Below, in pieces: positions 27,805 through 64,000 of a DNA stretch of 64,000 bases. The notes under the pieces are model-generated. The model was not told the origin of the DNA. It made no database searches and saw only the letters and a list, made by a program, of their open reading frames with translations. Position 1 is the first letter of the stretch; each line of letters starts with the position of its first letter. The stretch lies in the IMG/VR virus record IMGVR_UViG_3300042261_000762, positions 40,108 to 104,107 of that record; one strand, 5' to 3'. A program made the position numbers and the translations under genes. The DNA comes from a virus.

Positions 27805-27894
27805 TATTTTTTTGTTTATTTTAATCGACTTCTGACCAGTTACATATTCTTTCCCGCTGAAGCTTTCATTTGATTTAATTTTAAAGACATATTT

Positions 27895-28535: not shown

Positions 28536-28538
28536 ATC

Positions 28539-28964: not shown

Positions 28965-28981
28965 ACTATTTGTTTTTTATT

Positions 28982-28994
28982 TATATATTAAAAA
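28982..28994 (-). promoter_or_regulatory. Candidate phage promoter, minus strand
   Basis: Minus-strand TTTTTAATATATA, 17 bases before the ATG at 28964. Confidence 0.5.
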
Positions 28995-29000
28995 TGAAAT

Positions 29001-29477: not shown

Positions 29478-29487
29478 AAATTATATA

Positions 29488-31748: not shown

Positions 31749-31749
31749 A

Positions 31750-32004
31750 TTATTCCTCCCAATCTTCTTCTCCAAAAGGATCTAGTTCAGAATATATCCT
31801 TTTTATTTCTTTTTGTTTTGACGGAATATTTATTGTAGAATAAAATCTATTATCTATCATAGTTGTTGCATACCTAGATTTAATAGTCTTCTTTGGAATA
31901 TTAGTTGAAACATCCACAACTTCACATGGTTTATAAGGCATGTAAACATAACCTTGATTATTTTTTATCCTTTCCATCTCTAGTCTATACATATTATAAC
32001 TCAT
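31750..32004 (-). CDS. Tagged protein resembling the C-terminal region of gp23
   Basis: YVYMPYKPCEVVDV and IKSRYATTMIDNRFY recall T4 gp23 near its C-terminus (IYYAPYVALTPL, then GFKTRYGIGINPF). It ends with KEIKRIYSEL and DPFGEEDWEE. The likeness is by eye only. Confidence 0.55.
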   Translation of the reverse strand: MSYNMYRLEMERIKNNQGYVYMPYKPCEVVDVSTNIPKKTIKSRYATTMIDNRFYSTINIPSKQKEIKRIYSELDPFGEEDWEE

Positions 32005-32007
32005 AAT

Positions 32008-32202
32008 TTAATCCTCCCAATCTTCTTCCCCAAAAGGATCTAAGTCTGAATATACTCTCTTTATTTCCTTTTCTGGCATACTGTGTAATACTGAATATTC
32101 TCTAATCCATGCCATTTTTTCTTCGTCTGTTATTTTAAGTTTGCGTTCTTGCGGTAAAACCCAACTCTTTACAGCTTTTTCTTTATCTATAATTAAATAC
32201 AT
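32008..32202 (-). CDS. Small tagged protein, 64 aa
   Basis: The C-terminal EKEIKRVYSDL and DPFGEEDWED are nearly identical to those of the neighbouring genes. The first 45 residues (with MAWIREYSVLHSMP) are of unknown origin; given its neighbours they may derive from a virion protein. Confidence 0.6.
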   Translation of the reverse strand: MYLIIDKEKAVKSWVLPQERKLKITDEEKMAWIREYSVLHSMPEKEIKRVYSDLDPFGEEDWED

Positions 32203-32205
32203 AAA

Positions 32206-32592
32206 TTAATCCTCCCAATCTTCTTCGCCATAAGGATCTAAATCTGTAAATTTTTGACCCTTTGGTACATGAGTACTATTATTGCTTATTCCTCCTGTTC
32301 CACTTGATCCACTTACTCCATGAGGACTACAAGAATAATAAGGTCTCCCTATTCCGGCAACTCCTGATGTTCCGCTAGTGCCTACTGCACCACTCATTCC
32401 CATTTTAGCCTTACTAAATCCTGGATCTGCCACTATATCGTAAGATAATATTTTGTGGGATTTAATATATCTATCTACTACTTCTCCTACTCCTCTACTA
32501 CAAACAACAAAATTAGCAGGCGCTGTTCTGCCAGCCTCTGATATTATATTAGAAGCTTCAAGTATCTTGCCTACTAATTTTTTGTTGTTCAT
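32206..32592 (-). CDS. Tagged protein with gp23-like segment and collagen-like linker
   Basis: SNIISEAGRTAPANFVVCSR resembles T4 gp23 VEIARQTGRGEGNFIIASR. A short GTSGTSGVAG / GVSGSSGTGG stretch, as in the fibre genes of this phage, follows, then FTDL and DPYGEEDWED at the C-terminus. It is the first of the five-gene tagged cluster. Confidence 0.6.
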   Translation of the reverse strand: MNNKKLVGKILEASNIISEAGRTAPANFVVCSRGVGEVVDRYIKSHKILSYDIVADPGFSKAKMGMSGAVGTSGTSGVAGIGRPYYSCSPHGVSGSSGTGGISNNSTHVPKGQKFTDLDPYGEEDWED

Positions 32593-42602: not shown

Positions 42603-43334
42603 TTAAAACCAACCTCCGAAAAAAGAAGTCTGTTGTTTTGGTGGTTTAAGACAAGTAGATTTTGTCCACATATTAAAATAACCAGTTATTAATCCAAGTG
42701 ATGTGTTTGGTACTCTAATTAAATAATCACATTTATCAGTATTTGGAGAATCACAGAGGTTGTGATGTTTGTAACTTACATGATCTATTTTTATTACAGT
42801 TACTTGTTTACCGTGATGTAAATTCCACATATAAGGAAAACAATTAATATCTGGAACATATGTATATACTCCATTTACCTTAATTTTTTCTACTGATTTT
42901 TGATTTTGTTTTCCTGGTCCAGTTCCGTTTTTTATTGTTAAAGTCCCGTCTTTATCATCAATACTCCAATTTCCTGGTTTATGCCAAGGGCCATTTGGAT
43001 CTTTAGATTTCTGCTCTGGTTTAGCGACCGGTTTAGGCTCTGTCTTTTCTTTTTTCTTAAAACATTTGGTCCATGCTATAGTGATATTTCTTTGACATTC
43101 ATTGGCTTTTTTATATCTTTTGGCTTTTGGATACAAAGATTCTATTTCTTTCATCAAAGGCAACGCCATATCAACAAGAAATCTAAGTCTATCTTCCATA
43201 GCTTTATTTGAATTTGAATCTGAATCTGTATTAATAAAAGCTGGCATGCCATCCACGTCTTCAGCATTCTTATCTATTGATTCTGATAAAAACTTTTTAT
43301 AATTTTTATTAATTTTCCCAGTCTTCTTCTCCAT
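42603..43334 (-). CDS. CTS-like protein, 243 aa
   Basis: The ATG at 43334 lies inside the DPYGEEDW codons of the upstream gene in a shifted frame, and the product starts MEKKTGKINKNYKKFLSES, with a CTS-like NYKKFLSESI. A helical domain, a KPEP-rich linker (about residues 95-115) and a cysteine-containing beta domain follow. Function unknown. Confidence 0.62.
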   Translation of the reverse strand: MEKKTGKINKNYKKFLSESIDKNAEDVDGMPAFINTDSDSNSNKAMEDRLRFLVDMALPLMKEIESLYPKAKRYKKANECQRNITIAWTKCFKKKEKTEPKPVAKPEQKSKDPNGPWHKPGNWSIDDKDGTLTIKNGTGPGKQNQKSVEKIKVNGVYTYVPDINCFPYMWNLHHGKQVTVIKIDHVSYKHHNLCDSPNTDKCDYLIRVPNTSLGLITGYFNMWTKSTCLKPPKQQTSFFGGWF

Positions 43335-43644
43335 ATGGATCTTCTTTTGTTATTTTTCTTTTTCCCTGAGGATAATAAGGCACATCTTTGCCACTCATCA
43401 TCATACCCATTCTTATAGCACTTACATAAGAAAATATATTAGCTAATCCCATCTGACTAGCTGTTGTTTGATAGATTTCCGTCCCGTCTTTTATTTTTAA
43501 TACGAACATGTTGTTTTCTGTTACCATTGATAAATGTGGATATATTTTCCAAACCGCGGCCATTATTCCTTTTATGTCGTCAATAGTAACATCATCGCCA
43601 TGTTTCATTTGTTCTTTTAATATATCTTGAAATCTTTTAACCAT
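43309..43644 (-). CDS. CTS-like protein with C-terminal DPYGEEDW tag
   Basis: MVKRFQDILKEQMKHG is CTS-like; the protein ends KRKITKE and DPYGEEDWEN. Between them is a small domain with IDDIKGIMAAVWKIYP. The tag codons also hold the start codon of the next gene. Confidence 0.66.
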   Translation of the reverse strand: MVKRFQDILKEQMKHGDDVTIDDIKGIMAAVWKIYPHLSMVTENNMFVLKIKDGTEIYQTTASQMGLANIFSYVSAIRMGMMMSGKDVPYYPQGKRKITKEDPYGEEDWEN

Positions 43645-44216
43645 TACTTCATGTTATTTTCATATCTTAATTTTAACAACAAATAATCAGTAACTAAATC
43701 GTGGATTTTAATATTATCTATATCACCCAAACTTACTTTAACTACTCTATTTTCTTCTGTTATTTTTACGCTAGATTGTTTATAATCGTTATAATTTATA
43801 TTTAATAAACATATATGGTATTGACCAACATTATTATCTCCTTTGAATAATACTTTATCTACTTCTATTGGAAAAAGATTATTAAGTACTACTCCCGTTT
43901 TTTCATAAAGTATTCTTCTAACATTTTGCGTTGGAGTTTGATCATCATTAAAATCATCTTTGATGGTAGTAAGATAAAAATCTACTGTATTATATTCTGA
44001 TTTATCTTTATATTTGAACTTAAAAGCAGGACATTTTTCATATTTTAGAAGTATAAATCCATCGTCTTTGAAATATGGAAGTATTACGACTTGAGCGTTG
44101 CTTATAATAATATCTTTATCATCGAACTTTATAATAGATATTTCATCATTCTTGAAAAGATCTTCATTTGATTTTGTTTTTGGTTCATTCTTTTTTATTT
44201 TTGTAAATTTTTCCAT
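43644..44216 (-). CDS. Possible Nudix-like protein
   Basis: The middle part follows a Nudix order: AFKFKYKDKSEYN, then PTQNVRRILYEKTGVVL, a degenerate Nudix box lacking the first Gly and several Glu residues, so catalysis is doubtful. The basic N-terminus MEKFTKIKKNEPK is a poor CTS match. One-base overlap with the next gene. Confidence 0.45.
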   Translation of the reverse strand: MEKFTKIKKNEPKTKSNEDLFKNDEISIIKFDDKDIIISNAQVVILPYFKDDGFILLKYEKCPAFKFKYKDKSEYNTVDFYLTTIKDDFNDDQTPTQNVRRILYEKTGVVLNNLFPIEVDKVLFKGDNNVGQYHICLLNINYNDYKQSSVKITEENRVVKVSLGDIDNIKIHDLVTDYLLLKLRYENNMK

Positions 44217-44231
44217 ATTTATTTAATTTTT

Positions 44232-44582
44232 TTATCTTTCTAATTTTCCTACAAAAATTAAAGATCTGTCAACTTGAGCTTGCATGTAAGGATCTTCTTC
44301 TCCCCTGTTTCCATTATTAAAATTTATATTTATAAATTCATCTATGTTTTCACCTATTACTTTAGTCCTGGTATCTACAATATTCGGTCCTATTACGTTT
44401 TGATTAATATTCCAAATTATATAAACATATCCTCTAATAAAATGGTTTTCATAATTTCTTGTGCATAAATATATGTTATTCATACTTGTTATTTCCTGTT
44501 CTTCTACAGGATTCCATATTTCCTCACCATATGGATCTATTTTATTAAATTTCTCAAATGTCTTTATTATGCTTTTTTCCAT
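44232..44582 (-). CDS. CTS-like protein with N-terminal DPYGEE tag
   Basis: MEKSIIKTFEKFNKI is joined directly to DPYGEEIWNP. The remainder is a small beta-rich domain (IYLCTRNYENHFIRGYVYI). Overlaps the upstream gene by 16 bases. Confidence 0.64.
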   Translation of the reverse strand: MEKSIIKTFEKFNKIDPYGEEIWNPVEEQEITSMNNIYLCTRNYENHFIRGYVYIIWNINQNVIGPNIVDTRTKVIGENIDEFININFNNGNRGEEDPYMQAQVDRSLIFVGKLER

Positions 44583-44932
44583 AATCCGTCAAATTCTCCT
44601 TTTTTTAGTTGAGATCCGTCTGCTGTTACTAACCTATAATCGCCTGGTTTATTATTATCTATTAATAATTTAGCTCTTTCAAGATTAAATTTTAAAACTC
44701 TTTCGTCTCTATACTTAATGTTTTTTCCACCAGACATCGCTGTAAATTGGTTAAACTTACCATCTCTCATTTGCGTTAGAAAAAATTTTTTACCATGTTC
44801 CACTTTAAATATAGCCCATCCTCTTTCATACCAAGGCAAATCATCTTCAAAATCTTCTTCAGTATTATCTACTTCATCGAAATTACCTTTTTTATACCAT
44901 TTGATAGAAAATTCTTCAAACATCTTAACCAT
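44567..44932 (-). CDS. CTS-like protein, 121 aa
   Basis: MVKMFEEFSIKWYKKGNF starts with a CTS-like stretch and then the KWYKKGNF element also found in the 17901 protein (KWYKNGNF). No tag. A small alpha/beta domain follows. Confidence 0.62.
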   Translation of the reverse strand: MVKMFEEFSIKWYKKGNFDEVDNTEEDFEDDLPWYERGWAIFKVEHGKKFFLTQMRDGKFNQFTAMSGGKNIKYRDERVLKFNLERAKLLIDNNKPGDYRLVTADGSQLKKGEFDGLWKKA

Positions 44933-45548
44933 TTATATTAATTAATTTTTCAAAAGCCTCTTCCACTAATTGTGGACTTAATAATGTAATATCTGAAATA
45001 TTAAAATCACCTTCATTTCCTAAATTCCATCTCTGTATGACTCTTATAGAAACCTTATCCATCGGTTTCGAATCAAGAACATGCGGGGCATCATCTACTT
45101 GAACATCAGATTGATCCCATTTATCTAATGATCTAGGAACAAAAGATATATCATCATAAGGTATTTTATATTTTCTTATCCAGTCCATTGCTCCTTGTTG
45201 AGCATTCTTTCCAGGTTGGCATGTAACTATTCTAACCAAAATACCATTATTTTGTGTGTATTCATACACTTCTCTCATCGTTTCTACTGCTCCTACATAT
45301 GGTTTTGAATTTTTCCACATTTCATATCTATGATCGTCTATCCATTTATAAGGATCCATCCCATTATAGTCTAAAGAATGGTACCAATACCAGTCTGATA
45401 CTTGATTCGATGGAATGAATTTATTACCTGGAAAACATTTAGAATAAACGCAATTGAAGCTTTCGGCAAAATCGTTCAAGACTCCATCCAAATCTATTCC
45501 CAGTACCTTTTCATTTAAATGGTTGAATTTTTCGAAAGTTTTTAACAT
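44925..45548 (-). CDS. 5'(3')-deoxyribonucleotidase-like HAD with CTS-like N-terminus
   Basis: MLKTFEKFNHLNEKVLG is CTS-like and runs into the HAD nucleophile motif GIDLDGVLNDF (residues 17-27). VRIVTCQPG supplies motif II and VQVDDAPHVL motif IV. The layout matches the NT5C/NrdF2-like family of 5'(3')-deoxyribonucleotidases, which dephosphorylate dNMPs. The promoter element is 21 bases upstream. Confidence 0.78.
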   Translation of the reverse strand: MLKTFEKFNHLNEKVLGIDLDGVLNDFAESFNCVYSKCFPGNKFIPSNQVSDWYWYHSLDYNGMDPYKWIDDHRYEMWKNSKPYVGAVETMREVYEYTQNNGILVRIVTCQPGKNAQQGAMDWIRKYKIPYDDISFVPRSLDKWDQSDVQVDDAPHVLDSKPMDKVSIRVIQRWNLGNEGDFNISDITLLSPQLVEEAFEKLINING

Positions 45549-46829: not shown

Positions 46830-47186
46830 TTACCAATCTTCCTCTCCGTAAGGATCTACACTTCTCATTCTATCTTTTAATTGTTGTTTCTTGATCATCC
46901 ACTTATCAAAATCTTTTTTTTTAAGAAAATTGTTATGCCATTGAGTTCCTATTAGTATTCCGGATTCTATATCTATTATATCAAGAAGACCGTCTGATCT
47001 AGAATCAGTAACTCTATATGCATTACCTGTAGTTAGATAACGATTTGTGAATGTGCTATAAATAATATCTCCAACATCAAATGGTTGTTTTGGACCTTTT
47101 CCTTTAGGATGTTTCATTTCAGGAGCCCTGTGTGGAAGATTTGTCTCATATATGTATCTTTCAAATGATCTTATATTATTAAGCAT
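46830..47186 (-). CDS. CTS-like protein with C-terminal DPYGEEDW
   Basis: MLNNIRSFERYIYETNLP is CTS-like. The sequence ends exactly with DPYGEEDW and a stop, so here the tag is the C-terminus itself. The centre (FDVGDIIYSTFTNRYLTTG) looks like a small barrel. Overlaps the membrane-protein gene by eight bases. Confidence 0.66.
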   Translation of the reverse strand: MLNNIRSFERYIYETNLPHRAPEMKHPKGKGPKQPFDVGDIIYSTFTNRYLTTGNAYRVTDSRSDGLLDIIDIESGILIGTQWHNNFLKKKDFDKWMIKKQQLKDRMRSVDPYGEEDW

Positions 47187-47717: not shown

Positions 47718-49310
47718 TTACTCTGCTGGTGGTATTACCATCGGAGCGAACTTTTTCTTGACTTTAATATTATAATGAGTCAATCTTTGAAGTGTTCCTT
47801 CTTTACCAATAATTTCCATTATATCAAACAGAGAAGGACCATATCCCATTCCAGTTAAAACAAGTCTTAAAATTGGAGCAATATCTCCAAATTGAAGATT
47901 GTTTTGTGCTACATATCCTTCAAAAGCCTTTTGAATATTTTCTGAGCTCCATTCAGATACAGTTGCTAAGGCGTCTTTTAAACCAGCTAGAATTGCAGGA
48001 CTTTTATCGTTCCATTTATTTTTAACTGTTTTTTCATCAAAATTCGTTGGTGGTTTGAATAAATACATAGAAGCTTCATAAATATCACCAATGAAATTGG
48101 CCTTACCTTTATTCATTTGAACCATTTTTGCTACGGTTCTATCAGGAAGATTAATTCCTTTTTCTTTTAGAATAGGAATAAGTTTAGCTGTACATTCTTC
48201 ATCAGATACTTGTTTTAAGTATTGACCATTGTACCATTTAGCTTTATCAATATTAAATTTAGCTCCTGCTCTACCACAACGCTCTAATGAGAATGCAGCG
48301 ATAAGTTCATCCATACTCATTATTTCTTGTTCTGTTCCTGGATTCCAACCTAAGAAAGCTAAGAAGTTTACAAAAGCTTCTGGGAAATATCCTTCTTCTT
48401 TATATTTTAATGTAAATACGGAAAATCCTAAATCTTCAGCATTACGTTTTGATAATTTTCCGGCTCCGCCTGGGTTAAGTAAGAGAGCCAAGTGGGCAAA
48501 TTTAGGAACTTCCCATCCTAAAGATTTGTACAGAAAAACATGAAGCGGGGCACTTGGAAGCCACTCTTCACCACGAATTACATGACTCGTTTTCATTAAA
48601 TGGTCATCAACTATGTTAGCTAAGTGATATGTTGGAAGACCATCCGACTTGAACAGAACTTTATCATCAAGTGTATTTGTGTTAGCTTCAACGTTACCTC
48701 TGATAACATCCTCTACAACTATAATTTCATTTTCTGGAAACTTCGCTCTGATTACATGAGGAGTATTCTTAGCAAGTAAGTTTTGTACTTCTTCTGAACT
48801 CATTGTAAGTGAGTTCTTCATTGTCATTCTAGTAGTATGATCATATTGTGGTGATGCTACCCCTTTTTCGATCAATTTGGATTTCATATTTTCGATATCG
48901 TCTGGAGTATCAAAACAATAATATGCGTGACCTTTATCAATAAGTTCCTTGGCATATTTTGGATAAATATCATATCTCTCAGACTGACGATATGGACCAT
49001 ATGGTCCACCGATCCATGGGGCTTCATCCGGAGCAATTCCCATCCAATCTAATGATTTTTTAATATAATCTTCCGCTCCTTGAACGAAACGCTGTTGGTC
49101 TGTATCTTCTATTCTAAGATAGAATACGCCATTATATTTTTTAGCAAAAAGGTAATTATAAAGAGCTGTTCTTGCTCCACCAATATGCAAAAGTCCCGTA
49201 GGACTGGGAGCGAATCTGGTGCGAACCGTCCCAGATACACTTTCTTTCATCATACCAACGAATTTTTCAAATTCAGTAATGTTTATTAAATTCATGTTTT
49301 TCATGTTCAT
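47718..49310 (-). CDS. gltX: Glutamyl-tRNA synthetase with CTS-like extension
   Basis: A full GluRS: RFAPSPTGLLHIGGARTALY (HIGH region), LRIEDTDQQRFVQGAEDYI, RGEEWLPSAPLH and the KMSKS variant KLSKR near residue 285, then an anticodon-binding domain. Its sequence type is that of Bacteroidota GluRS. About 30 extra residues precede the catalytic core and include TEFEKFVGMMKESV, like the CTS of other genes here. It should charge the phage tRNA-Glu copies; whether it can misacylate tRNA-Gln is unknown. A complete aminoacyl-tRNA synthetase in a phage is unusual. Confidence 0.93.
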   Translation of the reverse strand: MNMKNMNLINITEFEKFVGMMKESVSGTVRTRFAPSPTGLLHIGGARTALYNYLFAKKYNGVFYLRIEDTDQQRFVQGAEDYIKKSLDWMGIAPDEAPWIGGPYGPYRQSERYDIYPKYAKELIDKGHAYYCFDTPDDIENMKSKLIEKGVASPQYDHTTRMTMKNSLTMSSEEVQNLLAKNTPHVIRAKFPENEIIVVEDVIRGNVEANTNTLDDKVLFKSDGLPTYHLANIVDDHLMKTSHVIRGEEWLPSAPLHVFLYKSLGWEVPKFAHLALLLNPGGAGKLSKRNAEDLGFSVFTLKYKEEGYFPEAFVNFLAFLGWNPGTEQEIMSMDELIAAFSLERCGRAGAKFNIDKAKWYNGQYLKQVSDEECTAKLIPILKEKGINLPDRTVAKMVQMNKGKANFIGDIYEASMYLFKPPTNFDEKTVKNKWNDKSPAILAGLKDALATVSEWSSENIQKAFEGYVAQNNLQFGDIAPILRLVLTGMGYGPSLFDIMEIIGKEGTLQRLTHYNIKVKKKFAPMVIPPAE

Positions 49311-49462: not shown

Positions 49463-49939
49463 TTAAAAAAGCCAGTTTTCTTCTGGTTTGTAATCATTCA
49501 TATAATCGTTTATAATATCTTTTAATTTTTTATCTTCTCTTTCATCCCAATTTTCTTCGCTATATGGGTCTATATCAGATTCTTCTTCTACACTTTCCCA
49601 TACTTCTTCACCATAAGGATCTTCTGGATGTTCTTCCATCCATCTTAATCTTTTTATTTCAAATTCTTCTAATTTTCTTTTATATTTTTCTATTGTTTCT
49701 TTTGGAGCTTTTAATAGAAGTTTTTCTCCAACTATGTGACAAAATGGTTCTTCGTTGTCTATAAAACACACCTTGAATCTTCTAGGCCCGTGTTGGTATC
49801 CACGATAAGGTAAAGGAACTTCATCTATTATTTTAACAATACCTTTTTCTAGATGATTAAAATTTCCATTATAGATTGCATAATCTCCAACGTTTAAATC
49901 TCCTAATTGTTCATTTACAAAACTGTTAAAATTTAACAT
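49463..49939 (-). CDS. CTS-like protein with two tags
   Basis: MLNFNSFVNEQLGDLNVGDY is an excellent CTS match (SFVNEQ). A KOW-like barrel (VGDYAIYNGNFNHLEKGIV) follows, then DPYGEEVWES and DPYSEENWDE in the last 50 residues. No enzymatic motif. Confidence 0.7.
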   Translation of the reverse strand: MLNFNSFVNEQLGDLNVGDYAIYNGNFNHLEKGIVKIIDEVPLPYRGYQHGPRRFKVCFIDNEEPFCHIVGEKLLLKAPKETIEKYKRKLEEFEIKRLRWMEEHPEDPYGEEVWESVEEESDIDPYSEENWDEREDKKLKDIINDYMNDYKPEENWLF

Positions 49940-49947
49940 TAATTTTT

Positions 49948-50334
49948 TTATTTTTTTCTATAATTCAATTCATAATAATCTATATATCCTGTACCATTAC
50001 ATTCTGGACAATCAACTTCTTCGCCTGTGTCTTGGTCTGTCCATCCACCTTCTCCTCCACATTCATCACACATTTCATCATCTCTGTCACCACATAATTG
50101 CTTTAATTCTTCGTCTGTATAATTTAAAAGAGACTGTCTTATTAAATCACTTATGAAGTGTCTATAATCATAAGGATTATTAATTAGATCCTCTATTATA
50201 TCAGAAATCATTCTATCTCTATCTAATTCCATTGGTTTTTCATTCCAATTTTCTTCTCCATAAGGGTCTAATATATTATCCATGTCTTTTTTGTTTTCGA
50301 ATGCAAAATTATGAAAATTTTTTATATTTTCCAT
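49948..50334 (-). CDS. Tagged CTS-like protein with DnaJ-type zinc finger
   Basis: I choose the ATG at 50334 (MENIKNFHNFAFEN); a TTG upstream would start inside the previous gene's tag. DPYGEENWNE is near residue 25, and the C-terminus has CDECGGEG and CPECNGTG, a single DnaJ-type zinc site. Confidence 0.68.
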   Translation of the reverse strand: MENIKNFHNFAFENKKDMDNILDPYGEENWNEKPMELDRDRMISDIIEDLINNPYDYRHFISDLIRQSLLNYTDEELKQLCGDRDDEMCDECGGEGGWTDQDTGEEVDCPECNGTGYIDYYELNYRKK

Positions 50335-50342
50335 CAAAATTT

Positions 50343-50561
50343 TTATTTTTCTTCCCAATTTTCTTCTCCATAAGGATCATTAATATATTTTGGAGGATCT
50401 ATTTCTTTATTCATAATTAAAGCAAGAATATCATCTAATCTTTGATTAATATTTTTTTCCATAAGTTCTAAACGTCTTATAACTCTTCTTGCACCAGAGT
50501 AAGCATCACAAGACTCATCTATTTTTTCAAATTCATCTATTATTTCATTAAAAGATTTCAC
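50343..50561 (-). CDS. Small CTS-like protein with C-terminal tag
   Basis: GTG start set by the promoter spacing of five bases. MKSFNEIIDEFEKID is CTS-like and the C-terminus is NDPYGEENWEEK. The helical middle (GARRVIRRLELMEK) is short. Confidence 0.62.
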   Translation of the reverse strand: MKSFNEIIDEFEKIDESCDAYSGARRVIRRLELMEKNINQRLDDILALIMNKEIDPPKYINDPYGEENWEEK

Positions 50562-50566
50562 GTTCC

Positions 50567-50578
50567 TATATATTAAAA
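50567..50578 (-). promoter_or_regulatory. Candidate phage promoter, leaderless type, minus strand
   Basis: Minus-strand TTTTAATATATA, then five bases, then the GTG at 50561. Confidence 0.55.
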
Positions 50579-50627
50579 TTATTTTTTAATTAATTATATA
50601 TCCCAACCCGGATCTTTTAAACACATA

Positions 50628-51734
50628 TCACATATCTTCTCTACAATCAGGACAAACTTGGTCTAACATTAAAGCATATGGATAACGTTCTCCACATATT
50701 CTACAATGAGTATAATCAAGTTCTCTATCTCTATCATCTAAATAATCCAATATCCCTCTATCAAATTCTTCCTTTTCCTTATCTTCGTTCCAGTTTTCTT
50801 CACCATAAGGATCTAAATCATTTTGATTTTCGAATATCTTAAATTTATTATCATTCAAATATTTTCTTTTATTATAGTCGTGAATTTTAAAAACTTCTTC
50901 CCAACTTATTATTCCTTCTTCTGGTCTTGATATCTCATCCGTTTTAATTTTTTTGAAAATATCAATCTCTTTAATAACAAAATCTTCCATTATTTTATCT
51001 CTCAATGTATCTTTTTCAAGACTATTAAAATATCTAGTTTTTTTCTTTCTATTATTTTCTATATTTTTATTTTTTTTAATCTTTTTAATTCTAGCTCTTC
51101 TGCTACCAGCAAAATATGGATCTTCTATTACGTCACTAGCAACACCAATAACATCTGGACGTCTGAATGTTGCAGAATCAGGACCTTTATTGAAAGAAGG
51201 ACCGGCATTTTGTTGATCGCTATGACCCATAGAACCATATCCTGTTACATTTCTATAATCAGAATACTCGTTTAGTGGACTTTGACACATTATAAAATCT
51301 TCTTTTGAAATTTTAAATATTTTCAATATATCTGAAAATTTTAAGTCTTGAAAATCCCCTTCTCCTTGCCAATCGCATACATATACTTTTATTCCAATTT
51401 TATCATCCATTACTAATTTCTTTTCTTCTTCGTTTAATGGAATAAAATCCCAGTCTGGAAGAGGGAAAAATTCAAATGAATATCCTTTTTCAAAACATTC
51501 ACCAACAGCCATTAAATAATCACATGCTTTTGTTCCTTGAAATCTAAATTGAATTATACCTCCTTCTTTATTAACCGGATTGGCGTCGTTGTGATAAGAA
51601 GAAAAATAATAAAACCCACCGTCTTTTAATGCTACTTTTTGAATATCAAATCCGTTTAATTCTTCCCATATTTCTTCACCATATGGGTCTATTTTATTTC
51701 TATCTTGTTCGAATAATTTGAATTTTTTTATCAT
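50628..51734 (-). CDS. CTS-like tagged protein, probable fusion
   Basis: MIKKFKLFEQDRNKI and DPYGEEIWEE form the start. Near residue 305 a second NKFKIFENQNDL followed by DPYGEENWNE repeats the CTS-plus-tag unit internally, as if a second gene lost its start codon and fused. The C-terminus is a zinc ribbon (CRICGERYPYALMLDQVCPDC). The middle (NVTGYGSMGHSDQQ, GPDSATFRRPDVIG) may derive from a virion protein. Confidence 0.66.
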   Translation of the reverse strand: MIKKFKLFEQDRNKIDPYGEEIWEELNGFDIQKVALKDGGFYYFSSYHNDANPVNKEGGIIQFRFQGTKACDYLMAVGECFEKGYSFEFFPLPDWDFIPLNEEEKKLVMDDKIGIKVYVCDWQGEGDFQDLKFSDILKIFKISKEDFIMCQSPLNEYSDYRNVTGYGSMGHSDQQNAGPSFNKGPDSATFRRPDVIGVASDVIEDPYFAGSRRARIKKIKKNKNIENNRKKKTRYFNSLEKDTLRDKIMEDFVIKEIDIFKKIKTDEISRPEEGIISWEEVFKIHDYNKRKYLNDNKFKIFENQNDLDPYGEENWNEDKEKEEFDRGILDYLDDRDRELDYTHCRICGERYPYALMLDQVCPDCREDM

Positions 51735-51748
51735 AAAATTAATTTTTT

Positions 51749-52414
51749 TTAAAATCTGTTATCTTCTCTAAAATATATTTCTTCTCTATGCATTAGCCAA
51801 TCGAAGTGTTCACTACACAAATAAGTTGTTAAATTATGTCTCATTTCAAATTCTCTATATTGTTCTTCTTCAAAATGTGGGTTCCACGGATTTTCTTCTC
51901 CTACTTTATGACTTGCCATATTTTGACAACCAACTATCATACATTTAACTCCTTTAACAGAACCTGGTAATTTATGTTCATCCCCCCAGTTTTCTTCCCC
52001 GTAAGGATCTATTTTATTTTTACCTCTTTTATATCTCTTATTCTCATCAATCTTATTTTCAATTCTTTTCTTCATTTTATTTATGAGTTCGTCTAATTGA
52101 AGAATAAAATTTTCTTTGGATGTTATGTTTGTTGTTTCTGTTTTTGTTTCATTCCCTCTTTCGTGTGATAATTGTAATGTATTTTGCCCGTGTAATTCAT
52201 AGAAATCGAAATTAAATCCCTTAAATTTAAATTCTATGGTTCTACCTATCTTTGGATAATCTGGATCAGCATCCATGTATGTAAAATTCTTAACTCCTCT
52301 TATATTTTTTATAAAATCGATGTAATCGTCAAATGGAAATTCATTCCAATCTTCCTCACCGTAAGGATCGATATTAGAGTCGATTTGTTCAAATATTTTA
52401 AATTTTCTTATCAC
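51749..52414 (-). CDS. CTS-like protein with two tags and a zinc-binding end
   Basis: MIRKFKIFEQIDSNI then DPYGEEDWNE; a second DPYGEENWGD near residue 138 starts a Cys/His-rich module (CMIVGCQ ... CSEHFDWL). A single small domain separates the tags. ATGA overlap with the gene upstream. Confidence 0.67.
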   Translation of the reverse strand: MIRKFKIFEQIDSNIDPYGEEDWNEFPFDDYIDFIKNIRGVKNFTYMDADPDYPKIGRTIEFKFKGFNFDFYELHGQNTLQLSHERGNETKTETTNITSKENFILQLDELINKMKKRIENKIDENKRYKRGKNKIDPYGEENWGDEHKLPGSVKGVKCMIVGCQNMASHKVGEENPWNPHFEEEQYREFEMRHNLTTYLCSEHFDWLMHREEIYFREDNRF

Positions 52415-53238
52415 TTAATTCTTTTTAATTTTTCTATTATTGGATCTATTCTTCTTTTAAGACCATATAAAATACTAGTCCCTTCAAAAGCGTCATTCCA
52501 AACATGGGCTATATATTTAATTCTAGCAATAGTTGCTTCGTCAATTTGACCATCACTCTTTTTCAAGAAAGATAAAATTTTCTTTTCTATTGTATCAGGT
52601 TTTGTATCTTTTAATAATTCAATAACTTCAGACATATTTTGTAATGTATCTAATAGATCAATAAATCCACTAACATCAGTGTGTACTGATTCTTGCGCCC
52701 ATTCACCTTCTACATAATTATATTTAAATTTTTTATTTTTATCTTTTTCTCCCCATTCTTCTTCACCATAAGGATCATGTGCTTGAATTTTTTTTCTTTC
52801 TTCTTCTTGTTCATCTTTATATTTTCTTGTAGCGACTGGATCTAATTCCAACATGTGTTCTGGAACTCCTTTTAATGTTCTTATAGTATCAGTTCTAGTT
52901 ATAGAATCCTTTTTACATCGTCCTTCTTCATCATAAATTAGATGCATAATTCCACTATAAACATCTAAAAATTCTATAGCATATGTATTTGTTTTAGATT
53001 TTGCAAATGGAATTTCAATATAACGATCTCTATCTATTCTATCGCCGATTCCTTGAAAAAAACTTCTACCTTTTTTTCTAGTTCCATATGAAATTTTACA
53101 TAATTTACCATCAAGTTCTTTATCGTTAGGATTATGATATATACAAATATCACCGCCATGAAATTTATGTTTATGAAAATGGTGTTCCAAACCCATTATT
53201 TTTACTTCTTCGTTATATTTCTGAAATTTCTTTATCAT
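52411..53238 (-). CDS. CTS-like protein with DPYGEE tag
   Basis: I choose the ATG at 53238 (MIKKFQKYNEEVK), which matches the family N-terminus and overlaps the preceding stop (ATGA); a TTG five codons upstream would lie in the tag of the previous gene. A barrel-like domain (FHGGDICIYHNPNDKELDG) is followed by DPYGEEEWGE near residue 163 and a helical C-terminus. Confidence 0.67.
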   Translation of the reverse strand: MIKKFQKYNEEVKIMGLEHHFHKHKFHGGDICIYHNPNDKELDGKLCKISYGTRKKGRSFFQGIGDRIDRDRYIEIPFAKSKTNTYAIEFLDVYSGIMHLIYDEEGRCKKDSITRTDTIRTLKGVPEHMLELDPVATRKYKDEQEEERKKIQAHDPYGEEEWGEKDKNKKFKYNYVEGEWAQESVHTDVSGFIDLLDTLQNMSEVIELLKDTKPDTIEKKILSFLKKSDGQIDEATIARIKYIAHVWNDAFEGTSILYGLKRRIDPIIEKLKRIK

Positions 53239-53376
53239 AAATTTTCTGACCAATCTTCTTCACCATAAGGATCAAAGATTTTATTTTTATTTTTTTATTT
53301 CTTCTAATTTTGTTCTTTGTTCATCGATGGCATTTTTCTTTTTTCTAAATATATTAAATTCTTCAAATGTTCTCAT
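53235..53376 (-). pseudogene. Small CTS-plus-tag gene with a frameshift at an A7 run
   Basis: The ATG at 53376 starts MRTFEEFNIFRKKKNAIDE, CTS-like, and meets a TAA after 29 codons. One base further in frame, after a run of seven A (53290-53296 as T on the plus strand), the sequence continues as NKNKIFDPYGEEDWSENL to a TGA overlapping the next ATG. Joined, it is a typical 47-residue CTS-plus-tag protein. Either an error, a mutation or slippage. Confidence 0.55.
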
Positions 53377-57705: not shown

Positions 57706-58386
57706 ATGAGCGATTGGATATATTCAGGCGAAGATGGTTCATTAGTAAGGGCTAAACTAAATGAGCTCCACGATTACGTTTATGAAATACTAGAGGGAAC
57801 TAGTGGAAGTAGTGGCAAAAGTGGCACAAGCGGTAAAAGTGGCACAAGCGGTTCTTCAGGTAAATCTAGCTCATCTGGAATATCTGGGTCTTCAGGAACA
57901 TCTGGAACAAGTGGTACATCTGGAAGTTCTGGAGTTGATGGAAACTTTTATGGAACTTCAGGCACATCAGGGGTTAATGGGGAATTTTTAGGATCCAGTG
58001 GAACTAGTGGAATAAATGGAACCAGTGGAACTAGTGGAATAAATGGCACTAGCGGTACTAGCGGAATAAATGGCACTAGCGGTACTAGCGGAATAAATGG
58101 CACTAGTGGGTCTAGTGGCATAAGCGGAACTTCGGGCACTAGTGGAGATAGCGGCACTAGCGGAACTAATGGTTCGAGCGGGACTAGTGGTTTAACTGGA
58201 ACGAGTGGAACTAGTGGTTTAAGTGGAACTAGCGGGACAAATGGGACATCGGGTAGTTCTGGTAGTGGGAGTTCAGGAACGTCTCTTGTCACTAATGGAA
58301 TAACAACAATAACGGTTTTGACGCAAGCTCAATATGATGCCATAACAGAGCCTAATTTAACAACACTTTATATAATATCGGGATGA
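57706..58386 (+). CDS. Collagen-like (GTSGSSG) fibre protein
   Basis: A 30-residue N-terminal anchor (MSDWIYSGEDGSLVRAKLNE) is followed by about 150 residues of Gly-x-Ser/Gly-Thr-Ser triplets, a collagen-like triple-helix pattern, and a short C-terminal cap (TTITVLTQAQYDAI). Phage collagen-like fibres form trimeric rods. The ATGA overlap with the FISUMP gene suggests coupled assembly. Confidence 0.82.
   Translation: MSDWIYSGEDGSLVRAKLNELHDYVYEILEGTSGSSGKSGTSGKSGTSGSSGKSSSSGISGSSGTSGTSGTSGSSGVDGNFYGTSGTSGVNGEFLGSSGTSGINGTSGTSGINGTSGTSGINGTSGTSGINGTSGSSGISGTSGTSGDSGTSGTNGSSGTSGLTGTSGTSGLSGTSGTNGTSGSSGSGSSGTSLVTNGITTITVLTQAQYDAITEPNLTTLYIISG
57800..58275 (+). repeat. Collagen-like coding repeat
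   Basis: Nine-base units encoding Gly-Thr/Ser-Ser. Blocks such as GGAATAAATGGCACTAGCGGT recur several times. Confidence 0.85.
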
Positions 58387-59354
58387 AATTTTATTATAAT
58401 AATATATCTGGAGATACTGCTTATATGGGAAGTACTCTTGTTTCTAATTTTAAGATAGGAACAACTGAATCTGTAACAGATTATGATGGTAATGTTTATA
58501 CGATAATAAGAGTAGGAAAACAAAAATGGTTTCAACAAAATTTAAGAGTAACACATTTAAATGATGGTACTCTTATTACTAATTTAACTGGGGTAACAAC
58601 GCCTAATTCAATATTTTACTCTTGGTATAATAATAGTTATCAAACAGGAATAACTTATGGAGCTTTATATAGTGGATATGCAGCATTAGATTCTAATATA
58701 GCTCCAACTGGGTGTCATGTTCCAACAATAGAAGAGGTATCAGAATTATTTGATTATAAATTGAATGCAGGCGCTTTAAAAGAAACTGGATTTACATATT
58801 GGAATAGTCCTAATTCAGGTGCCACAAACTCTACTTATTTTACTGCTTTACCTGGCGGTTTAAGATGGCATGATGGAGATTTTTATTATATAAATATTGA
58901 TTGTAATTTATGGACTGCTTCTTTGTCAACATCTAGTGATTTGTGTTATTGGGGAGCTACCTATAGCACAAATGTCATGAATAGAGGACAATTTTATAAA
59001 AATGAAGGATTATCTATTAGATGTTTAAAAGATCAGGTTTTGAATAAGCCAACTGTTTCTATATCTATAAGTGACATAACTCAGAGCACGGTTGATGTAA
59101 CAATGACTATCGCATCGACTACAAGTGTCACTAGAAGAGGAGCTTGCTTTACTTACGGTACAGATAGAACTACGCCAACAACAACATTGAATAATGTATC
59201 TTTGAGTGGAACAGGAGATGGGACTTTTACATTTACAGTAACATTAGATGCAACGGGATTAATACATCCAAGAACTTATGATATAAGAGGATTTGCGCAA
59301 AATTCAGATGGTTTGGGATATAGTAATACAATTACATTTACTACATTATCATAA
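58383..59354 (+). CDS. FISUMP-domain fibre tip protein
   Basis: Residues 25-220 are a FISUMP domain (DYDGNVYTIIRVGKQKWF, APTGCHVPTIEEVSELFD, closing LSIRCLKDQ). A C-terminal fibronectin/Ig-like domain (TVSISISDITQSTVDVTMT) follows. Next to collagen-like rods it fits a receptor-binding tip. It may mimic host surface proteins, since this domain is common in Bacteroidota. Confidence 0.78.
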   Translation: MKFYYNNISGDTAYMGSTLVSNFKIGTTESVTDYDGNVYTIIRVGKQKWFQQNLRVTHLNDGTLITNLTGVTTPNSIFYSWYNNSYQTGITYGALYSGYAALDSNIAPTGCHVPTIEEVSELFDYKLNAGALKETGFTYWNSPNSGATNSTYFTALPGGLRWHDGDFYYINIDCNLWTASLSTSSDLCYWGATYSTNVMNRGQFYKNEGLSIRCLKDQVLNKPTVSISISDITQSTVDVTMTIASTTSVTRRGACFTYGTDRTTPTTTLNNVSLSGTGDGTFTFTVTLDATGLIHPRTYDIRGFAQNSDGLGYSNTITFTTLS

Positions 59355-59360
59355 TTAAAA

Positions 59361-59372
59361 TTTAATATATAA
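59361..59372 (+). promoter_or_regulatory. Candidate phage promoter
   Basis: TTTAATATATAA, 18 bases before the ATG at 59391. Confidence 0.5.
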
Positions 59373-59390
59373 AATAAAAATTTAAATAAA

Positions 59391-60002
59391 ATGACATATG
59401 AATATAATCTAGATAATTTTATAGCAGTGCCAACTACGAGCGATCAACGACTTTTCATTTACAATAAAAATAATGAATTTGTAGATAGTATAATAGTAGA
59501 TTTATCTCATTATTTTGTAAAAAACAATTGTCTGGTTATAAAAATTACTAACAAAAATGATCTTATGTTAAGTTTTGAAAGTAGAACAATAGCCCAATTG
59601 GCGCTTGAAAAATTAGATAGATTTAGAAAATCTATTATGACGCTTAGTGGAGAATTAGTAAAACCAGAAAGACCTACATTAAATACTACTAATCTAAATA
59701 TGTGGGCGTGTGATATTATACCGGGTGTTGATTTTCAATTAATTAGTGGCGCCACAGTATCTCAAGTTCCAAAATCCAGAATAGAAGTTATAGTTAATGG
59801 AAGTAGTCATGTTCCGTGTGGTTATCCTGATGGTCTTTATATAGGTTGTTATTTTACATCGGTAGAAGATAATGGAGACCCATTAAAAGCTAGAGTTAAT
59901 GACGGTGATGTTCAATTGGGCGATAATTTATATTGGATTGGTTCTGTGGCCGGATTTGATTTAGATAGTACAGATATGCTAGATTATAATTATCTAGTTT
60001 AA
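59391..60002 (+). CDS. Virion-associated protein, 203 aa
   Basis: No tag or targeting peptide. An early TTSDQRLFIYNKNNEFVD strand pair, a helical centre and a glycine/cysteine-containing beta C-terminus (CGYPDGLYIGCYFT). It lies between fibre genes, so a tail or neck role is likely but unproven. Confidence 0.58.
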   Translation: MTYEYNLDNFIAVPTTSDQRLFIYNKNNEFVDSIIVDLSHYFVKNNCLVIKITNKNDLMLSFESRTIAQLALEKLDRFRKSIMTLSGELVKPERPTLNTTNLNMWACDIIPGVDFQLISGATVSQVPKSRIEVIVNGSSHVPCGYPDGLYIGCYFTSVEDNGDPLKARVNDGDVQLGDNLYWIGSVAGFDLDSTDMLDYNYLV

Positions 60003-60026
60003 TAACCTTTCTTTTCAAGATTTTTA

Positions 60027-60038
60027 TTTTAATATATA
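60027..60038 (+). promoter_or_regulatory. Candidate phage promoter
   Basis: TTTTAATATATA, 25 bases before the fibre gene start at 60064. Confidence 0.5.
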
Positions 60039-60063
60039 AGAGAAAAACTTTTACAGCTAGTTT

Positions 60064-63000
60064 ATGATCTTACGTGACTTGATTCAAGGAAAACAGATAG
60101 ATGATTCTACTATACAACAAAGTAATTTAGATTTATCTCATCCAGATAATCTTTCTTTAACTGGATATACAACAGACGCTATTAATTCGGCTGTTACTGT
60201 TGGTTACTTAAATTACAGATTGCACGAACTTTATACTGGTGGAACTAGTGGAATATCCGGTTCAAGTGGTGTGGATGGTTCTTTTTTCGGAACACACGGC
60301 ACAAGTGGATCTAGTGGAAAAAGTGGATCTTCTGGGACTAGTGGTATTTCTGGAACTAGTGGTATTTCTGGCACAACAGGAACTTCAGGTAGTTCTGGTA
60401 AATCTGGTAGAGATGGGCACGATGGAACTAGCGGAGTTTCAGGAACAGCTGGATCTTCCGGTAAAGATGGTATTTTCTATGGATCTAGTGGATCTAGCGG
60501 AGAAAGCGGAACATCAGGAACTAGCGGTTTAACTGGAACATCAGGATCTAGTGGATCTAGTGGTATATCTGGTAGTTCTGGTAAATCTGGTAGAGATGGT
60601 AAATCCGGAGCTAAAGGTACGAGTGGAACTAGCGGTTCTAGTGGTTCTAGTGGTTCTAGTGGGTCTAGCGGATCTAGTGGGGGTTCTGGAACTTCTGGGT
60701 CTTCTGGGTCTTCTGGTATAGATGGTATTATGTCTGTTTCTGGAAACCAGGGGAATATACAATTTAGAGACAATGGAGTGTTGGGTAATAATACGGGGTT
60801 AACGTTCGATAAAACTTACGCTTATTTTGGTTTGGGGACTGATATTCCATTAACAAAATTACATTTTTATGGAGAACAGATAGGAGGAGATGAGAATGAA
60901 TTTCAGCGCGGAAATTCTTTAATGATAGATGGTTTAGAAAATTCTGATAAAAATTTAGTTTTTTCTTCTTTAAATGATCCAAAATGGGCAAATCAAATTT
61001 ACCGCGATGAAAATGGCGAATATTTATATATTTATAATTTTCAAACAAACAAAGAACCTTTCGTCTTATCAAGATCTGGAAGAGTTGGTATAAATAAATC
61101 TTCCAATATCATGAATTATCATAGTAGATATACTGGTAATGATATGAACAATGATGATATGGATGTTGGGGGTGTATTTAATAGACTATATCAAATAATG
61201 TATGAAATTAGTATATCTTCAACTGGAATTACTGATAAAATACAATGGCGAAAATCTTACGATAACGGAATATCATGGGGAAATTTTTCTTCTGATATAG
61301 AATTATCAATAGATCCTATTTATCTTGAATACGGTGTAAATATTTTTTTTGAAAATGTTAACGGACACGATATCGATGATAAATGGACTTTTACTGCATT
61401 TCCTCAATTGCCAGAAGGAACATTTACAGTATCTCCAACCATGTTTGATGAAGTACAAACAACCGCAGATTATACATCAGAAGAACCAATTTTCAACGAT
61501 CAAACATATAACGCGTCAACCACGTTCGGAACTCTTGTCAAAACTTTAACAGGTTCAACATCAGCTTTTTATACAGGTTTCAAAATTCAATATAATAATG
61601 TTTATTTCAAGATAAATAAACAAGGGGCTGGAGTTAATTTAAAAGTAGAATACTTGACATTATCTGGCTGGACTGAGATGTCTGAAACTCAGGAAATAAT
61701 AGATCAAACAAATAATCTTACTCAATCTGGGTCTATTTTATGGGATAGATCTCAAATGTCAGATTGGATAAAATCGTTTTTTACTGGGCATACAGATGAA
61801 CAATACAATTTATATTGGATTAGATTTACATCTAAGACTAATGTTACAGAGTCTCCTATGGCCGACGTTATAACATTAAATGGATCATATAGATTTGCTG
61901 TTTATTCTGCTCATCTGGATTATGCTCCTTCTTTTTATATTGATGGACAAGGAAGAACTATACTTGGCGATTATCTGAAATTGGGGTCTGGTGTTTCTGA
62001 ATTACAAGGTTATTTGGGCATTAATACAAATGAACCTCAAAATTTAATTCATTTATACGGTCTGAAAACAATTCCTGATTTAGATGATGATATGTCTAAT
62101 AATATTCAAATAGATGGTGTTTCCGGTGGTGATAGAGGTATAGTATGGGCAGATGATGGCAATAAAAAATGGGAAGATTATATTTATAGAAATGAAAATG
62201 GAGAATATAAATATTTATATAATTACGAGTTAGGAAAAGATATTTATGTAGTATCTAAAAATGCTAGATTTGGAATTAATAAACAAACAAACGTTGGTGG
62301 ACCTTTTTCAGAATATCTCGGATTTGATAATGGTTCATTAAATGATTTAATTATAGGAGGAATTTATATAAATTCTGTTCCAATATTATACGAAATTATC
62401 ATATCACACGAGGGAGTCCAAGACGAATGTAGATGGAGAAAATCATTAGATTATGGGGTCAATTGGAATTTTTATTCTGATCCAATATCTTGTTCAACGT
62501 CAGAGACTGATCTGGAACTTGGATTAACATTTAAATTTTCGAATATTACGGGGCATAATACTTTTGATAAGTGGAGATATTTAGCATTTTCACAACAGCC
62601 AATTGGAACATTTAGTATAGCGCCAAGGCATTACGCTGGGGTTTTTCTATCAGGTAACACGACAAGAAATTATACTTATAATTCACAAAACAATTATGCT
62701 GAAAATTTTCCATTTTTATTTAGTGGGGATACTTCATATTTATATGTTGGAGATTATGTTGAATTTTCAACTGTTTTTTGTAATCTTGTTGAACATGTTG
62801 CGTCTGGAATAAATTTAGTAGCCGAATATTGGAATGGAACACAATGGATTGTTTTTTCTAATAGTGGATATTCGTATACAGATAATACTATAGAAGGAGG
62901 ACATAATTTAAGATTGAGTGGTAATATAGAATGGAATAAATCTTTATTGACTAATTGGGAACAAAAAGATGAATTTGATTTGAATTTATATTGGATTAGA

Positions 63001-64000
63001 TTTTATTCGTCTATTAATGTTACTTCATCACCGATAGCGAAAACTTTAACACCACATGGAAAATATCGTTTTTCAATATATTCCGCTCATTATGATTATA
63101 TTCCACAATTATATATCGATTCAATAGGAAATATAGTTACTTCAAAGTCTATTTATGTTGGAAATTCAAATCAAAATAATTCTTCTAATTTATTACAAAT
63201 TGGATATTCTGGAAATACATTATTAGAATTTAATACTGGTGGAACTCTTAGATTAAATATTTATGAATCTGGTTTTTTAAAAACAGATACTCACGGTAAT
63301 GTATATTACGATAATTCAAATTATGCCGGGTCTTCCGGAACCAGCGGGCAATCTGGATTAGACGGTTCTTCGGGGGCTAGTGGAACTTCTGGTATATCAG
63401 GAACCAGTGGTACTTCAGGATCCAGTGGCGCATCAGGCACTAGTGGATCCAGTGGCACATCAGGCACTAGTGGATCCAGTGGCACATCAGGTACTAGTGG
63501 GTCTAGTGGGACTTCAGGAACTAGTGGATCCAGTGGCACATCAGGTACTAGTGGGTCTAGTGGGACTTCAGGAACTAGTGGATCCAGTGGAACTAGTGGG
63601 GTGTCAGGAACACACGGAGTTAGTGGTACATCAGGCACTAGTGGATCCAGTGGCACATCAGGTACTAGTGGGTCTAGTGGGACTTCAGGAACTAGTGGAT
63701 CTTCGGGTACATCAGGAACTAGTGGAACCAGTGGAACCAGTGGAACTAGTGGGGTGTCAGGAACACACGGAGTTAGTGGTACATCAGGCACTAGTGGAAC
63801 TAATGGAACATCGGGAACTAGCGGTTCTTCGGGTACATCAGGAACTAGTGGAACATCGGGGTTTAGTGGTTCTAGTGGAACCAGTGGAACTAGTGGGGTG
63901 TCAGGAACACACGGAGTTAGTGGTACATCAGGCACTAGTGGAACTAATGGAACATCGGGAACTAGCGGTTCTTCGGGTACATCAGGAACTAGTGGAACAT
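60064..64000 (+). CDS. Giant collagen-like tail fibre (3' truncated by the window)
   Basis: An ATG at 60064 opens a frame with no stop to the end of the window (at least 1312 codons). After an about 60-residue anchor come collagen-like GxS triplets (60241-60725), then two related globular modules of about 350-400 residues (shared QIYRDENGEYLYIYNF / YIYRNENGEYKYLYNY and YDNGISWGNF / YGVNWNFYSD), then a second collagen-like stretch from 63328 running off the window. It is a trimeric side or tail fibre with tandem head domains. Confidence 0.82.
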   Translation, partial: MILRDLIQGKQIDDSTIQQSNLDLSHPDNLSLTGYTTDAINSAVTVGYLNYRLHELYTGGTSGISGSSGVDGSFFGTHGTSGSSGKSGSSGTSGISGTSGISGTTGTSGSSGKSGRDGHDGTSGVSGTAGSSGKDGIFYGSSGSSGESGTSGTSGLTGTSGSSGSSGISGSSGKSGRDGKSGAKGTSGTSGSSGSSGSSGSSGSSGGSGTSGSSGSSGIDGIMSVSGNQGNIQFRDNGVLGNNTGLTFDKTYAYFGLGTDIPLTKLHFYGEQIGGDENEFQRGNSLMIDGLENSDKNLVFSSLNDPKWANQIYRDENGEYLYIYNFQTNKEPFVLSRSGRVGINKSSNIMNYHSRYTGNDMNNDDMDVGGVFNRLYQIMYEISISSTGITDKIQWRKSYDNGISWGNFSSDIELSIDPIYLEYGVNIFFENVNGHDIDDKWTFTAFPQLPEGTFTVSPTMFDEVQTTADYTSEEPIFNDQTYNASTTFGTLVKTLTGSTSAFYTGFKIQYNNVYFKINKQGAGVNLKVEYLTLSGWTEMSETQEIIDQTNNLTQSGSILWDRSQMSDWIKSFFTGHTDEQYNLYWIRFTSKTNVTESPMADVITLNGSYRFAVYSAHLDYAPSFYIDGQGRTILGDYLKLGSGVSELQGYLGINTNEPQNLIHLYGLKTIPDLDDDMSNNIQIDGVSGGDRGIVWADDGNKKWEDYIYRNENGEYKYLYNYELGKDIYVVSKNARFGINKQTNVGGPFSEYLGFDNGSLNDLIIGGIYINSVPILYEIIISHEGVQDECRWRKSLDYGVNWNFYSDPISCSTSETDLELGLTFKFSNITGHNTFDKWRYLAFSQQPIGTFSIAPRHYAGVFLSGNTTRNYTYNSQNNYAENFPFLFSGDTSYLYVGDYVEFSTVFCNLVEHVASGINLVAEYWNGTQWIVFSNSGYSYTDNTIEGGHNLRLSGNIEWNKSLLTNWEQKDEFDLNLYWIRFYSSINVTSSPIAKTLTPHGKYRFSIYSAHYDYIPQLYIDSIGNIVTSKSIYVGNSNQNNSSNLLQIGYSGNTLLEFNTGGTLRLNIYESGFLKTDTHGNVYYDNSNYAGSSGTSGQSGLDGSSGASGTSGISGTSGTSGSSGASGTSGSSGTSGTSGSSGTSGTSGSSGTSGTSGSSGTSGTSGSSGTSGTSGSSGTSGVSGTHGVSGTSGTSGSSGTSGTSGSSGTSGTSGSSGTSGTSGTSGTSGTSGVSGTHGVSGTSGTSGTNGTSGTSGSSGTSGTSGTSGFSGSSGTSGTSGVSGTHGVSGTSGTSGTNGTSGTSGSSGTSGTSGT
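60241..60725 (+). repeat. Collagen-like coding repeat
   Basis: GTSG/SSG/KSG triplets in tandem; units of nine bases with frequent GGATCTAGT and GGAACTAGC. Confidence 0.85.
63328..64000 (+). repeat. Collagen-like coding repeat with nested 144-152 bp repeats
   Basis: GTSG triplets also form a higher-order repeat: a block encoding GVSGTHGVSGTSGTSG starts near 63591, 63743 and 63887, at distances of about 152 and 144 bp, and the last two units are almost identical to the window end. Recent expansion by unequal recombination is likely, and such arrays may be mis-assembled. Confidence 0.8.

Follow-up and report, generated by a model that had tools for sequence, protein, structure and literature searches.

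The Glutamyl-tRNA Synthetase Gene

The whole 64,000-nucleotide stretch (hereafter, the window) comes from a 104,107-base virus record, itself a fragment, and carries on its minus strand a complete gene for glutamyl-tRNA synthetase (GluRS; nt. 47718–49310, 530 a.a.), which opens with ATG and contains no internal stop codons. The product scored 481.8 bits against the NCBIfam profile gltX_bact (TIGR00464; cut-off 289.95) over residues 28–512, and comprises a catalytic domain (residues 29–359, nt. 48234–49226, minus strand; tRNA-synt_1c, PF00749, 1.4e-99) and an anticodon-binding domain (residues 389–512, nt. 47775–48146, minus strand; Anticodon_2, PF19269, 1.5e-29). The class I signatures HIGG (H42, G44, and G45) and KLSKR (residues 285–289) occupy invariant columns in a 12-sequence alignment, and the RFAPSPTG motif begins at residue 32. 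With both domains present, the profile cut-off passed, and the HIGG and KLSKR signatures invariant, this ORF is a real, complete bacterial-type GluRS, in agreement with the sequence-only reading that had called it complete and canonical.

The best solved relatives of the enzyme are 6brl and 6b1z, whose organism we take to be of the Elizabethkingia type. These Bacteroidota enzymes share the catalytic and anticodon-binding domains of the phage GluRS but lack two elements found at its ends, namely an N-terminal tag and a phage-specific C-terminal tail, KKKFAPMV (residues 512–530, nt. 47721–47777, minus strand). The tail is retained in three of four close homologues, the remaining one (L006) stopping after KKK. 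A short insertion after KLSKR, seen in phage and Bacteroidota relatives, is missing here (residues 290–303, about nt. 48400–48440).

The top GluRS matches in the phage collection were the 735-kb genomes LR756501 (hereafter, W01) and LR756503, at 77% identity over residues 2–527, followed by the 636-kb LR756504 (W02) at 47%; two IMG/VR contigs (G001 and G002) gave matches at 77% and 75%. W01 and W02 are probably the 735- and 636-kb genomes that Al-Shayeb et al. 2020 assign to the Mahaphage clade, for which hosts among the Bacteroidetes are predicted (PMC7162821). Two further genomes, LR756502 (W03) and LR745206 (W04), were used for comparison.

The N-Terminal Extension

Ahead of its conserved core, the GluRS carries an N-terminal extension (residues 1–23, nt. 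49242–49310, minus strand), which its tag score and codon conservation lead us to predict to be a capsid-targeting propeptide. The sequence-only reading had put the extension at about 30 residues; its existence is borne out, while the length was slightly overstated, as we measured 23 residues to the predicted cut and 27 to the start of the profile match. The extension is retained from the corresponding ATG in three close huge-phage homologues (75–77% identity), and upstream of this ATG the GluRS frame is open for two codons only. In the four close homologues the consensus reads M-K-[NK]-x-x-L-x-N-[IL]-T-E-F-[ED]-x-F-x-x-[ML]-M-K-E-S-V, with the F-x-x-F pair and MKESV invariant in all four. Pairwise differences among the four over codons 2–23 fell 27, 15, and 59 times at codon positions one, two, and three, respectively, and this excess at third positions marks the extension as a translated stretch. 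On these codon comparisons, the extension is shown to be translated and conserved, which rules out chance or a misread start as its origin.

Two features stand out within it. The pair F14-x-x-F17 (nt. 49260–49271, minus strand), both residues being invariant (4/4), is the equivalent of Y4 and F7 in the T4 internal protein IPIII. The predicted prohead-protease cut, M21-K22-E23/S24 (nt. 49239–49250, minus strand), follows the hydrophobic-x-Glu rule of T4, lies in an invariant MKES (4/4), and includes an internal ATG. The place where IPIII-type processing would fall after the second aromatic residue holds V-G-M, with the invariant MKE/S three residues further on. An AlphaFold model built with 15 sequences (mean pLDDT 79.8) placed a separate, low-confidence helix at residues 11–22 ahead of a normal GluRS fold, with pLDDT below 50 for residues 1–14 and 20–26. 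No hydrophobic core of an export signal was apparent by eye in the extension.

We compared the enzyme with Bacteroidota GluRS, as the sequence-only reading had suggested for defining the extension. Of 24 Bacteroidota GluRS loci, 23 had a readable RFAPSPTG motif; each of these has its nearest in-frame ATG four to eight residues ahead of the motif, and two show a further candidate ATG at 18 and 42 residues. None of the 23 scored above 0.1 for the tag described below, and the tag is thus missing from every readable locus. The extension is also missing from four other phage GluRS (L128–L131), and together these loci rule it out as a universal GluRS feature. The GluRS of W03 and W04 lack it, though W03 has the tag system.

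A Phage-Wide N-Terminal Tag

Unsupervised motif discovery from random seeds was run on residues 2–45 of 841 W01 ORFs, the GluRS of this phage being one of them; the start methionine was excluded, as it swamped the search when retained. The strongest N-terminal motif was IKKFkeFlkEl (I-K-K-F-x-x-F-[LI]-[KN]-E), with a log-likelihood of 768 against 338 for the best motif in an internal control (residues 62–105, 682 ORFs). Its information content is highest at the aromatic columns, 4 and 7. At column 10, Glu occurs in 36% of the 136 W01 ORFs chosen by columns 1–7, over a background of 7%, and in 32% of the 66 W02 ORFs chosen in the same way.

We then scored residues 1–30 of all ORFs of at least 140 a.a. 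at a threshold of 10, with two internal control windows per protein; as ORFs were chosen by a simple longest-ORF rule, some starts are wrong. Tag carriers made up 111/549 ORFs in W01 (7/1098 control windows), 18/83 in the source record of the window (1/166), 28/96 in G002 (2/192), 33/451 in W02 (8/902), and 47/332 in the first 400 kb of W03 (4/664). In a Bacteroidales chromosome, of which the first 400 kb were scored, 1/280 ORFs and 0/560 control windows reached 10. A score of at least 9.5 was obtained for 28 of the 96 ORFs in the window, including GluRS at 10.45; among the 166 internal control windows of the source record, one scored 9.9 or more. Scores for the related GluRS are 10.9 (W01), 10.0 (G001), and 11.1 (G002), while that of W02, a diverged enzyme with an extension unalignable with the others, scores 12.3.

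The sub-form found in GluRS, [LIM]xN[ILV]x(1-2)[FY]xxF, occurs N-terminally in 18 of the 980 ORFs of W01 and is absent from 752 internal controls; one W01 protein, for example, opens with MDLKNITPFEEFKKILEASV. The form LKNIT-x-F-[ED]-x-F also opens the unrelated W01 proteins at 27867–29933 and 202404–202934, and another example of the tag is MIKRFNNFVKES. By these motif scores, the GluRS extension is shown to be one member of a tag family that a large minority of the proteins of these phages carry.

Basic and aromatic extensions have been reported on rpS21 of huge phages (PMC7162821). An identity of these with the present tag is unsupported, given that the rpS21 frames in W01–W04 are 64–70 a.a. 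long and leave no room for it.

Tagged Proteins and Their Genomic Context

Upstream of GluRS lies a run of tagged genes on the same minus strand (nt. 49463–53253; ORFs 49463–49939, 49948–50358, 50343–50561, 50628–51734, 51749–52414, and 52411–53253) with scores of 11.8–14.1, and the tag is found on 9 of 16 GluRS neighbours compared with 31 of 162 ORFs of the source record. We scanned 30 tagged ORFs against Pfam (ten each from W01, the window, and W02); 22 had no Pfam family, and seven had one at 0.001. Tagged proteins of the window include a 1104-a.a. protein (nt. 19316–22630) whose C-terminal half holds a CCA-adding tRNA nucleotidyltransferase, a polyphosphate kinase 2 (PPK2; nt. 23665–24882; PF03976, 1.1e-76), and a 5′-nucleotidase-like protein (nt. 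44925–45548). The W01 counterpart of the CCA-adding protein (154863–158564) is tagged as well and has an additional cytidine deaminase domain, and the opening of the W01 ORF at 152222–153436 resembles the tagged PPK2 sequence. The tagged W02 ORFs with a Pfam family encode FMN reductase-like and WG-repeat proteins. Two further tagged W01 ORFs gave weak nucleotidyltransferase matches (457823–459457) and zinc-motif matches below cut-off only (7451–9568).

W01 has 28 ORFs with a T4 homologue, for the most part enzymes of replication, packaging, and nucleotides, and not one of them reached a tag score of 10 (0/28 versus 111/549, Fisher p 0.005, the 28 not all being at least 140 a.a. long); the highest score among them was 9.7, for a gp46-like ORF. 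Among aminoacyl-tRNA synthetases (aaRS), GluRS is the sole tagged one found. Untagged are the TrpRS/TyrRS-like (score 2.7) and HisRS-like (−0.2) ORFs of the source record and a ThrRS-like ORF of W02, all named by eye, and these rule out the tag as a feature of all phage aaRS. Class II aaRS-like matches were also noted at W02 220940 and G000 15060.

The heptamer TATATAG occurs within 60 bases upstream of 37/154 tagged versus 41/687 untagged W01 ORFs (Fisher 4e-10), which suggests a candidate late promoter shared by tagged genes. It was not seen upstream of GluRS; among the tagged genes of the window that it precedes are those at 17901 and 50343–50561.

A second peptide, DP[YF][GS]EE-x-W-[EDN], is also repeated. 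Its carriers number 27 among the 162 ORFs of the source record and 89 among the 980 of W01 (38 and 104 copies, respectively); G002 has 17 among 171 ORFs, and W02 none among 896. It often sits at the extreme C-terminus or directly behind the tag, and 45 of its 89 W01 carriers have the N-terminal tag. In the window it is found at 3941–4975, 12355–13007, 18903–19319, 30863–32592, 43309–44582, 46830–47186, and 49463–52414.

Resemblance to the T4 Head-Targeting System

We applied the tag model to T4, which was absent from its training set. The tag of ipII and ipIII includes Met1 as its first residue and is missed when scoring starts from residue 2; all ORFs were therefore scored over residues 1–30. 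Of 246 T4 ORFs, ipIII and ipII (both opening MKTYQEFIAEA) ranked first and second with a score of 15.0, followed at ranks 12–14 by gp24, ipI, and gp23; two other T4 ORFs also reach a score of 10. Alt, gp67, gp68, gp21, and gp22 were not recognized, so the model finds only the IP-like type.

In T4 IPIII, residues 4 and 7 are reported to act in targeting and residues 8 and 10 in processing, and its initial 10 residues are enough to bring foreign proteins into the head (PMC9026906). The aromatic and Glu columns of our tag coincide with the targeting and processing residues as given in that source, and T4 offers a model in which a similar tag brings foreign enzymes to the cell (PMC9026906). Like the targeting sequences of IPI, IPII, and IPIII, the GluRS tag is N-terminal and short, with an aromatic pair three residues apart and a candidate hydrophobic-x-Glu site ahead of a small residue, and relatives of the phage encode a candidate gp21-type protease. 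Unlike in T4, the cargo is an aaRS, the spacing from the aromatic pair to the candidate cut is longer, and far more proteins are tagged. The cut position of T4 IPI is likewise far from its FxxF pair. The sequence-only reading had termed the extension targeting-like and given no mechanism; that reading is partly supported, the sequence evidence supplying a mechanism in that the extension matches a phage-wide tag resembling the T4 capsid-targeting sequence.

Head genes of the T4 type are present in the relatives. A gp23-type capsid protein was found above the Pfam cut-off in W01, W02, and G002, and a portal-like ORF of W01 matches T4 gene 20 (1.3e-29). The long ORF directly before the W01 capsid gene, with a corresponding order in G002 and W02, encodes a candidate gp21-like protease; its Pfam matches in the three are weak (22–25 bits against a cut-off of 27), and it aligns with T4 gp21 at the motifs GE[LF][ND]HP and VSSR, which we take to hold the catalytic His and Ser. 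The W01 protease has Glu at residue 9, as in the LIE-9 site of T4. MAFFT did not place the cut site of the capsid protein itself against that of T4, and so the cut HQMNE/N is assigned by eye only. The 104-kb source record gave no protease match and no convincing capsid protein.

Proposed Function and Alternative Explanations

We regard the extension as a probable capsid-targeting propeptide of the T4 type, which would package GluRS into the head and be cut off at MKE/S to leave a normal N-terminus. Carriage in the virion, which the sequence-only reading had raised, would thus be expected from the sequence resemblance, and since the extension looks like the T4 head-packing label, the virus may inject ready-made GluRS with its DNA. 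The course that we propose runs from docking through cleavage and carriage in the virion to injection and benefit. GluRS would be synthesized with a short helical tag, whose F14 and F17 would dock it onto the scaffold core of the growing prohead, where the gp21-like prohead protease would cut after Glu23 (MKE/S24). The cut enzyme would begin eight residues before RFAPSPTG, like the host enzymes, and on entering the next cell with the DNA could charge tRNA-Glu from the first minutes. Counting against this proposal, the GluRS tag has no Glu at column 10, and the candidate cut has Met where T4 prefers Ile or Leu. The untagged GluRS of W03, a phage that does have the tag system, the missing TATATAG ahead of the present gene, and the sub-cut-off protease matches also weigh against it.

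The internal ATG invites other readings. The codon for M21 is ATG in all four close homologues, so a second, untagged GluRS product is possible, and the sequence-only reading had named use of a downstream start as what would refute an extension; this conserved ATG speaks for such a start, while the codon-level conservation of the extension weakens the objection. That translation should start only at M21 (MKESVSG...), the upstream part being barely or never translated and the product an ordinary cytosolic phage enzyme, appears very unlikely. Such a start would lie 11 residues ahead of RFAPSPTG, near the usual four to eight, but the codons before M21 are open and show the third-position excess with T, E, F, and F invariant, a matching tag stands on unrelated proteins, and the W02 GluRS has an unalignable tag of its own. 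Use of both starts, with a long form being packaged and a short M21 form working in the cytosol of the producing cell, is unlikely. In its favour, besides the conserved ATG, the annotation of T4 gene 21 includes an internal start yielding a smaller protein. On the other hand, Met would also serve simply as the hydrophobic residue ahead of K-E, no start signal was found, and the W02 GluRS lacks a Met at this place.

The remaining readings accept the long form and differ in its role. The tag could be a phage-wide localization or docking peptide for a non-capsid site, such as a replication compartment, a membrane, or a partner protein; more than 100 carriers in one genome, compared with the handful in T4, and the DPYGEE peptide that accompanies the tag would suit this. 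Its coincidence with the T4 capsid-targeting residues and the untagged state of ORFs with T4 replication homologues argue the other way, and we regard such a role as rather unlikely. A tRNA-binding or regulatory element of GluRS itself seems highly improbable, even though phage aaRS can differ from those of the host and the enzyme also has a phage-only C-terminal tail, for the same tag occurs on unrelated proteins including the CCA-adding enzyme and PPK2, and the extension is predicted to form a loose helix off the core.

A broader form of the packaging proposal is more tentative, and we hold it somewhat less likely than even: phages of 600–735 kb may bear T4-type tags on at least 100 proteins and carry a head kit of GluRS, CCA-adding enzyme, and PPK2, with the M21 start giving a second GluRS form that stays in the cell. 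If true, the kit would bring tRNA repair, charging, and ATP supply to act on the host ahead of phage gene expression. As for why glutamate would be the amino acid served, one idea is resistance to a host toxin that acts on GluRS.

Both halves of the packaging proposal have precedents, as T4 capsid-targeting tags and huge-phage aaRS are already known, and what would be new is their pairing. A Bacteroidetes-type GluRS has been published for Mahaphages of 600–735 kb by Al-Shayeb et al. 2020, with a GluRS tree (Extended Data Fig. 7; PMC7162821), and the text of that paper dealing with capsid, N-terminal, packaged, virion, or glutamate makes no mention of an N-terminal tag on GluRS. In the giant phage SPN3US, head proteins bear N-terminal propeptides that are cut by the prohead protease, and inner head proteins are thought to be targeted by them (PMC5694885). 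The position at the N-terminus is as predicted here for GluRS, whereas the SPN3US propeptides are mostly much longer, often exceeding 100 residues, with only that of gp45 having 20 (PMC5694885). Among the papers listed in our search of the open-licence literature, we found none linking aaRS to targeting into the capsid or packaging in the virion. If the proposal is true, the virus delivers a working translation enzyme along with its genome, and the tag would give a sequence rule predicting which unknown Mahaphage proteins are injected, making the head content of giant phages directly testable.

Other Features of the Window

Ten tRNA genes were identified by ARAGORN at nt. 5714–9043 (three Glu, three Gln, two Ile, and two Met); the set is skewed towards the amino acid served by GluRS and its neighbour. 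At the other end of the window, nt. 57706–64000 hold glycine-rich, collagen-like frames (GTSGSSGKSGTSGKS) that probably encode a tail fibre.
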